64,000 nt of DNA, taken from Blautia sp. An81. Lineage in GTDB: Bacteria; Bacillota; Clostridia; Lachnospirales; Lachnospiraceae. Under the pieces are notes generated by a model. That model saw only the letters and a list, made by a program, of their open reading frames with translations, searched no databases and had not been told where the DNA came from. The stretch spans positions 1 through 64,000 of the forward strand of contig NZ_NFHH01000021.1 in assembly GCF_002161285.1 (NCBI RefSeq), in the 5' to 3' direction. Shown here in pieces: positions 35,629 through 55,604 of the stretch (its first letter is position 1; the number at the start of each line of letters is the position of its first letter). The position numbers and the translations under genes were made by a program.

Positions 35629-35687
35629 AAAGACCCTGAGGAACTTCCAGCTGTGCAGGATACGGCGAGAAGACCTCAGGGTCTTTT
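35629..35687 (+). terminator. Terminator after the PepSY gene
   Basis: AAAGACCCTGAGG (35629-35641) pairs perfectly with CCTCAGGGTCTTT (35674-35686), followed by T and ATT. The loop is 32 bases. Confidence 0.8.
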
Positions 35688-35775: not shown

Positions 35776-36090
35776 GGAACGGTTACAGAGAAGAAATCAG
35801 GTTATGAACCGTACTTTGCGGCCTACCGGAACGGTTATAGAAAAGAAAATCGGCTATGGACCGTACTTTACAGCCTACTGGAACGGTTACAGAGAAGAAA
35901 ATCGGCTATGAACCGTACCTTACGGCTTTCCGGAACGGTTATAGAACGAAAAACAGGTTTTAGACCGTAATAACAGGGCTAAAGGGACGGTTAAAAAGAA
36001 GAAAATTGGGTTAAGAACCGTAACTGTATGATTCCAAGGACGGTTTATATGACCTGAAGTGTATTTTGAACCGTTTCTTTCATTCAAAAA
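35776..36090. repeat. Six-copy tandem array of 52-bp hairpin units
   Basis: Units begin GGAACGGTTA at 35776, 35828, 35880 and 35932, with degenerate copies at 35984 and 36037. Each carries ACGGTT and, 28 bp on, RACCGT, so each unit can fold as a hairpin, and neighbours can also pair across units. The three first units are nearly identical inside; the last three diverge but keep the stem bases. The arm spacing alternates (about 28 and 24 bp), like an array of inverted protein sites. A nominal reading frame through it only reflects repeat length. The stretch 35690-35775 before it shows no feature. Confidence 0.85.
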
Positions 36091-36116: not shown

Positions 36117-36173
36117 TTGACAATAGGCCAGAGATGGTTGATTGTAAACCATTTTAAAGTCAATGGTTGACAA
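36117..36173 (+). promoter_or_regulatory. bioY promoter and BirA operator
   Basis: TTGTAAACC (36142-36150), 14 bases, GGTTGACAA (36165-36173) is a near-perfect inverted repeat that matches the BirA biotin-repressor pattern known in Firmicutes. TTGACA at 36117-36122 supplies a -35, and a poor -10 lies at the left half-site. Biotin-bound BirA would therefore shut off bioY. Confidence 0.75.
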
Positions 36174-36222
36174 TACAAAAGAAAAAGTGATACACTATCA
36201 GACAGAAAGTGAGGAAAAGTGT

Positions 36223-55567: not shown

Positions 55568-55604
55568 TACGGTTAAAAAATCGATTTTTTGTATTTTAAC
55601 CGTA
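55568..55604 (+). terminator. AT-rich hairpin after the NCS2 gene
   Basis: TACGGTTAAAA (55568-55578) pairs with TTTTAACCGTA (55594-55604) and is followed by TTATTTAATTTT. It is a plausible terminator for the NCS2 gene. Confidence 0.6.

Follow-up and report, generated by a model that had tools for sequence, protein, structure and literature searches.

Among known bacterial repeats, those closest to the arrays reported here are REP sequences with their RAYT enzymes. In two accounts (PMC2817692, PMC3116915), REP/RAYT systems are described as dispersed, extragenic palindromic units in alternating orientation, which coevolve with an enzyme whose cognate repeats they are; the number of repeats correlates with the presence of the enzyme, and the distribution is patchy between relatives. 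A second system for comparison is the EDxHD homing endonuclease I-Bth0305I, which, according to its description, forms a dimer on a target just under 60 bp long (PMC3943268).

The stretch of DNA that we analysed, hereafter the window, spans 64,000 nucleotides of the Blautia sp. An81 genome. It contains an array of short inverted sequences that very probably belongs to a dispersed set of sites bound by a cognate nuclease-like protein, the gene for which lies elsewhere in the genome. The array lies in an intergenic gap, 3' of a PepSY lipoprotein gene and its terminator and 5' of a promoter-like site of bioY (BioY being a Pfam match). The features are as follows.

35629 to 35686, plus strand: strong terminator-like hairpin belonging to the PepSY lipoprotein gene upstream; it flanks the array and lies outside it
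35779 to 36074, no strand assigned: array of dyad units found by pattern scan, with 12 alternating half-sites (F, ACGGTT; R, AACCGT or GACCGT) and a period of 52/53 bp
35779 to 35812, no strand assigned: unit 1 (dyad)
35831 to 35864, no strand assigned: unit 2 (dyad, right half-site GACCGT)
35883 to 35916, no strand assigned: unit 3 (dyad)
35935 to 35968, no strand assigned: unit 4 (dyad, right half-site GACCGT)
35987 to 36021, no strand assigned: unit 5 (dyad)
36040 to 36074, no strand assigned: unit 6 (dyad)
36167 to 36196, plus strand: promoter-like site of bioY, flanking the array
55569 to 55603, no strand assigned: lone seventh unit, ACGGTT-N23-AACCGT, between two convergent genes

The original prediction of a non-coding, six-unit array between the lipoprotein gene and bioY is borne out, with a period of 52/53 bp where 52 bp had been noted, as is its claim that all copies keep ACGGTT...RACCGT. 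All six units have the form ACGGTT-N22/23-RACCGT; the left half-site is exactly ACGGTT in every one, and the right half-site is AACCGT in four and GACCGT in two. Measured from start to start, ACGGTT is followed by AACCGT after 28/29 bp, and AACCGT by the next ACGGTT after 24 bp. The pattern ACGGTT-N15-25-RACCGT has 12 matches in the window, counting both strands and the lone unit, compared to 0.03 on average, and never more than 2, in shuffled windows. The lone unit has a terminator-like hairpin after it; our reading is that it is a minimal or decayed member of the array family. The inverted sequence TTGTAAACC...GGTTGACAA, which lies over the bioY promoter-like site, presumably resembles a BirA operator.

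Similar arrays are distributed through the genome. A relaxed pattern matched the window's whole genome 42 times in the forward and 41 times in the reverse direction, at about 15 loci, compared to 6 and 11 matches for a reversed control pattern. Every array locus in this genome is intergenic, subject to an uncertain start codon at L020. The search of relatives for the unit that had been suggested with the original prediction was productive: a scan of the genus with a stricter pattern yielded 6-52 matches in 8 of 20 genomes, the window's included, and 0-4 in the other 12. A tandem pattern occurs in 7 of the 397 family genomes, representing 6 of 334 genera. Inspection by eye of genus arrays revealed no conserved terminal motif past the last half-site, except decayed half-sites.

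Among 52 array segments from eight genomes, the distance from a forward to a reverse half-site was 29 bp in 158 steps, 28 bp in 68, 30 bp in two and 26 bp in one, so that 226 of 229 steps measured 28 or 29 bp; the distance from a reverse to the next forward half-site was 24 bp in 176 of 200 steps, and otherwise 23 bp (20), 25 bp (3) or 26 bp (1). The only features that recur outside the half-sites are a short extension (approximately GTACGGTTAnA), a GC step at the centre of the spacer, and an A-tract at the centre of the dyad, the last in a profile for which units were first oriented by their A-rich strand, a step that somewhat favours an A-tract.

Array periods follow the DNA helical repeat. 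The mean periods of 67 loci (one value per locus, array score of at least 9) correspond to 4, 5, 6, 7 and 8 turns (1, 42, 15, 5 and 4 loci, respectively), and their residuals from multiples of 10.5 bp have a standard deviation of 0.84 bp, versus 3.03 bp if they were uniform. The 25 loci outside the five-turn class gave R = 0.805 at 10.5 bp, with a Rayleigh p of about 1e-7 that is a guide only, because the loci are related. No helical phase was detected in chance chains drawn from shuffles and controls (R = 0.08).

Clustering of the genes next to arrays in a number of genomes revealed one protein family that adjoins arrays in four genera. Its members are 264-278 amino acids long; the protein of the window's genome has 275, and its gene is located as follows.

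G000:C34:122917-123741 (equivalent to L027:5118-5942): linked gene in the window's genome, 13 bp from an array

Of the 397 family genomes, 127 have homologs, up to seven in a single genome; of 391 genomes in a class-wide sample, 39 do, the weaker matches there covering the nuclease domain only. The named genome collection contains at least 571 confirmed homolog stretches. Among the 80 matches listed from it are Mediterraneibacter, Blautia, Butyrivibrio, Oribacterium, Eisenbergiella and Faecalicatena, the remainder being other Lachnospiraceae or unclassified Clostridia/Eubacteriales assemblies; a contig of Candidatus Blautia pullistercoris carries a copy of the linked gene that is 98% identical (L266). 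Pfam gave no family near its cut-off in three proteins and none general among 59 homologs, NCBIfam gave no match, and searches found no strong match in PHROGs and no credible relative among PDB sequences. A search of viral contigs gave three pattern matches and no relatives. Ratios of dN/dS between close homologs were mostly 0.07-0.18, with one pair at 0.72 that differs by very few changes, indicating strong purifying selection. A second homolog in the window's genome has decayed into two pieces, which are 58% and 76% identical and have no clear array beside them (G000:C11:62312-62979; L149, L189). Homolog genes are often near contig ends, for example at L138, L140, L150, L161 and L174, as would be expected if repeats break assemblies.

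Most homologs have an array of their own. We scanned homolog loci for alternating inverted 6-mers at regular distances. In a first set of 70 loci, made up of 30 loci and 40 more from the family homolog list, the array score was at least 9 at 53, and the best of 70 shuffles scored 6.8 (0/70). A second set of 80 loci from the named genome collection, which partly overlaps the first in that some genomes are common to both, had arrays at 65 loci, versus 2 of 112 control windows. An array above threshold was absent at 17 of the 70 and 15 of the 80 loci, some of them at contig ends. Among the 65 arrays, 63 were upstream and two downstream of the gene, at a median of 85 bp from the start of the match. 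Outside the Lachnospiraceae, arrays at threshold were found at 3 of 3 loci drawn from the class-wide sample (L312, L313, L315) and at 9 of 13 more. As to the two control windows that exceeded the threshold, one (L069:1275-1657, G429) is an ordinary-looking 60-bp tandem repeat, and the other (L023:8780-8921; G000:C12, ~68.4 kb), from the window's own genome, is a CTGGGC/GCCCAG array with a 53-bp period and six half-sites, possibly a second array type.

The half-sites beside the homologs vary (AACCGT, GTCAAC, AGTCGG, ACGTAC, GGTCAC, TCAAAA, GGGTAC and others); 38 different best 6-mers, some of them shifts of one another, were found among the 65 arrays. Placed in a common register, half-sites lie at about equal distance from the dyad. 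For 57 arrays with periods of about 53 bp, half-site similarity was correlated with protein identity (Mantel r = 0.634; none of 2000 permutations as high), climbing from 0.21 at 40-55% protein identity to 0.83 at 80-95%. Joint inheritance of the gene and its upstream array could account for part of this relationship. One genome, G231, has two homologs with different arrays, AGTCAA at 53 bp and ACAGCG at 62 bp (L152, L168).

In all four cases tried, the array beside a gene predicted which half-site is dispersed in that genome. Half-site pairs predicted from gene-adjacent arrays were searched for in eight genomes at a time. GGTCAC had 16 matches in its own genome, G198, and 0-1 in each of the seven others; GTACGT had 76 in G339 and none in seven others; AGTCGG had 23 in G263 and none in seven others; and GGGTAC, with a 75-bp period, had 16 in G143 and 0-1 in seven others. 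For all four the matches fell on at least three contigs, and therefore also lie away from the gene. All eight array-bearing genomes of the genus have a homolog, and the other 12 have only a 46-aa remnant, in one genome (exact p = 8e-6 without and 7e-5 with the remnant; 20 genomes). Taken as comparisons of sequence, these results strongly support a pairing of protein and array, from which we infer that the linked protein would bind the array directly. The original prediction had offered a protein-binding array as one of three readings, and the paired protein family and the helical-repeat periods now favour it.

The predicted structure suggests what the protein may do. An AlphaFold model built on 59 aligned homologs (pLDDT 92.5, pTM 0.77) has a PD-(D/E)XK/EDxHD-like nuclease fold at residues 158-264. 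The best structural match of this region is the catalytic domain of I-Bth0305I (Z = 8.6, rmsd 2.7 Å, 89 aligned residues), followed by Bax1 (Z = 8.3), TnsA (7.5) and Vsr (6.6); these Z scores are moderate, and several nucleases are tied, I-Bth0305I being level with Bax1 and close to TnsA. A plain Foldseek search of the PDB gave no match with E < 0.001. Among viral models there were four such matches, three with an rmsd near 21 Å over long alignments and a fourth, 1.9 Å over 102 columns, that is consistent with the nuclease domain alone. E172, D203, E218 and H219 are invariant in all 67 homologs that cover the domain, a set gathered by overall similarity and not by catalytic motifs, and D224 is present in 63 of them. 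The N-terminal half is modelled as a helical hairpin tipped by a beta-hairpin; its fold matched only coiled-coil and helical-hairpin proteins (Z up to 8.6, a score that is uninformative for helical models). Column 44 (L216 numbering), a Q or R in the beta-hairpin, best tracks half-site class when columns are ranked by r alone (r = 0.438, next 0.316), which hints at where DNA is read.

Arrays can be gained, and they can be left behind by their genes. None of the 11 alignable relatives has an array at the window's site, while seven of them carry such arrays at other loci; in the empty site the bioY promoter region stands close behind the terminator. The comparison covered 15 relatives' loci, from which L203, L207, L208 and L209 were dropped because no upstream flank aligned; at about 75% identity the alignments are too diverged to define a target-site duplication or an exact insertion boundary. 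Absence from all relatives, which was to count against the original prediction, is seen at this one site, but arrays of this type are abundant in relatives and at other places in the genome; the array was therefore gained at the window's site and is not an artefact. Among copies of the linked gene that are at least 96% identical, those of G000 and G006 are intact, those of G002 and G012 are broken (residues ~149-182 lost), and that of G019 is reduced to a fragment. G001 and G015 carry nothing closer than a 64% relative, and G018 nothing closer than a part-length 69% one; the 64%-type homolog has a different array, where its array was visible. The presence of arrays where the gene is broken or fragmentary indicates that arrays can outlast their gene. 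In G371 an array occurs without a detected homolog. Near-identical copies in three Blautia-like genomes (L183, L186, L191, L266) are interrupted at about the same place, with the stretch after residue 148 missing or out of frame, a pattern that we interpret as a shared inactivating change.

Similarities between arrays vary between genomes. Among the matches listed, arrays at several places in G339 are roughly 74-92% identical in many alignments, and most of these alignments end within ~10 bp of the array, while some include further flank. The window's genome shows weaker similarity (for example, 74% over 178 bp between the window's array and L022), and its filler sequences mostly differ from array to array. 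The alignments thus point to array-to-array copying that is clear in G339 and weak in the window's genome. At L294, L296, L298 and L299 of G339, common sequence also extends outside the array, as if carried by a larger dispersed element.

A mechanism can be proposed for these patterns. The linked protein would bind each dyad as a dimer, with the half-site (in its extended form, ~GTACGGTTAnA) read by the N-terminal half, perhaps by the beta-hairpin at residues 33-48. Protein copies would align along the array on a single DNA face, and the central A-tract of the dyad, together with the GC step midway along the spacer, may help the DNA to bend. The C-terminal EDxHD/PD-(D/E)XK-like nuclease would nick or cut at or near the array, and repair of the break would amplify units and copy arrays into other intergenic places. 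An array upstream of the gene would permit self-regulation by the protein. In the window, the array would have landed in the space that separates the lipoprotein terminator from the bioY promoter, interrupting neither gene. RAYT enzymes are thought to spread REP/BIME repeats in a comparable way. Nuclease-driven amplification and dispersal, a REP/RAYT-like life led with unrelated parts, is in our judgement about an even proposition. We put at even odds, too, the broader view that these are a new class of element in the Clostridia, a nuclease with its own DNA-reading code that spreads helically phased arrays of its half-sites.

Alternatively, the pairs may serve the host: the protein would be a chromosome-organising or topology factor, with its nuclease fold acting as a DNA clamp or cleaving rarely, and there would be no selfish spread. 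BIMEs with gyrase and macrodomain sites are analogues of such a role. Helical phasing, the alternation of A-tracts with GC steps and the strong purifying selection are in keeping with it, as is the choice of gaps. Among the 35 array loci with ORFs of at least 100 aa on both sides, 12 are in convergent gaps (background 16/117, p = 0.011) and 3 in divergent gaps, which are under-used (background 33/117, p = 0.02). However, the system is patchy within the genus, where 12 of 20 species are without it, and the gene decays while arrays stay. The catalytic residues are conserved, and a genome can carry as many as seven homologs, with different half-sites where two were examined in one genome. We consider a host-serving role possible but doubtful.

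The nuclease might instead attack incoming DNA, while the chromosomal arrays hold, titrate or restrain it, a form of self-recognition. The C-terminal domain matches the PADLOC candidate defence profiles PDC-S68 (E = 1.6e-25), and several homologs with different half-sites can coexist in one genome. Yet only the nuclease domain is common to the protein and PDC-S68, which is itself labelled a "candidate", and a non-systematic look beside the arrays noticed no defence-type partner gene. We consider an anti-invader function improbable.

A further possibility is that some other, unlinked DNA-binding protein occupies the arrays, and that the nuclease gene is no more than a frequent regulatory target. 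A Myb-type or other unlinked DNA-binding protein was considered for AACCG and set aside in favour of the linked gene. The mostly promoter-proximal position of arrays relative to the nuclease gene and their persistence in genomes without an intact gene would fit such a protein. The half-site, however, changes with the linked protein, so an unlinked factor would need to change in step, and all four gene-adjacent half-sites searched were genome-specific; we regard an unlinked protein as very unlikely.

That the arrays are structured RNA elements or a terminator cluster is scarcely credible, for although the units are able to pair and the complete array of the window gives a better fold than shuffled sequence does (z = -5.6, as expected of any inverted-repeat array), array periods throughout the family match the helical repeat of DNA, and Rfam, covariation, single hairpins and the terminator count are all against it. 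The "hairpin units" of the original prediction are accurate as to the inverted half-sites, but the RNA folds of single units are weak, at -3.6 to -10 kcal/mol, compared to -36.4 kcal/mol for the neighbouring terminator. The window had no Rfam match at gathering score, and matches near the array were at chance level. The suggested covariation test on the stems, applied to the 52 array segments, detected a weak effect one base outside the half-site, where pairing was 0.70 in the spacer hairpin (0.58 shuffled, sd 0.06) and 0.75 around the unit (0.60 shuffled); the remaining tested positions were near or below chance. Of the proposed selection on a stem or on a protein site in alternating orientation, the protein site is thus what stands, as pairing stops at the half-site save for this adjacent base. 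Structured RNA, one of the readings first offered, was rejected on these grounds and on the whole-turn DNA periods. The insulating terminator cluster, also among them, was rejected as well; the array has one weak terminator-like site inside it, versus 0.5 expected by shuffling.

Searches of the open-access PMC literature, a scope that leaves bioRxiv outside, found no report of this protein family or its arrays among the results listed, and within that scope the nuclease-array system is apparently undescribed and a new kind of system. A protein family that lacks a Pfam or NCBIfam model, and that occurs in about one third of the sampled Lachnospiraceae genomes and in other Clostridia, brings its own dispersed arrays. 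Since each member's own array is beside its gene, DNA specificity could be read from sequence for hundreds of proteins. If this is true, dozens of natural protein-specificity pairs (38 best 6-mers among 65 arrays) have target sequences legible from the genome, the recognition code becomes testable, and new sequence-specific nucleases or DNA-binding heads could result.

Comparison with known systems delimits the novelty. CRISPR arrays, which the original prediction had correctly set aside, also consist of regular tandem units beside a nuclease gene, but the arrays described here have alternating inverted half-sites, with no constant repeat or unique spacers, and their filler is alike between units, homogenised within arrays. 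PDC-S68 and PDC-S69, candidate defence proteins of PADLOC, have the C-terminal nuclease domain in common with the linked protein, but any defence context is absent here; PDC-S68 models ~1200 residues, of which only the last 130-180 positions are matched and the rest is absent from the linked protein. The homing endonuclease I-Bth0305I has E...D...H...D residues and a catalytic domain that is the best, though closely rivalled, structural match, and its target of almost 60 bp corresponds to about one array unit. It differs in its N-terminal half and in having one homing site in place of many tandem sites; moreover, the linked protein was not found in viral contigs, and no intron or intein was noticed. 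REP/RAYT systems differ in three respects that were each tested. The enzyme here is a PD-(D/E)XK/EDxHD-like nuclease, whereas RAYT is a Y1 HUH transposase; the GT(A/G)G head is missing from the unit profiles; and the array stands upstream of the gene (63/65), whereas a RAYT gene has one REP on each side. This is therefore not a RAYT system. The repeats also differ in construction, with half-sites of 6-8 bp, whole-turn spacing and free filler in place of conserved palindromes of tens of bp. In their organisation the two systems are nonetheless alike: both have dispersed, alternating inverted units, a cognate enzyme, coevolution of the two and a patchy distribution between relatives, and in both the number of repeats follows the presence of the enzyme, as seen here in the genome-specificity of all four half-sites and in the comparison of 20 genomes. 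The nuclease and its arrays would then be a second, independent route to REP-like repeats in bacteria.
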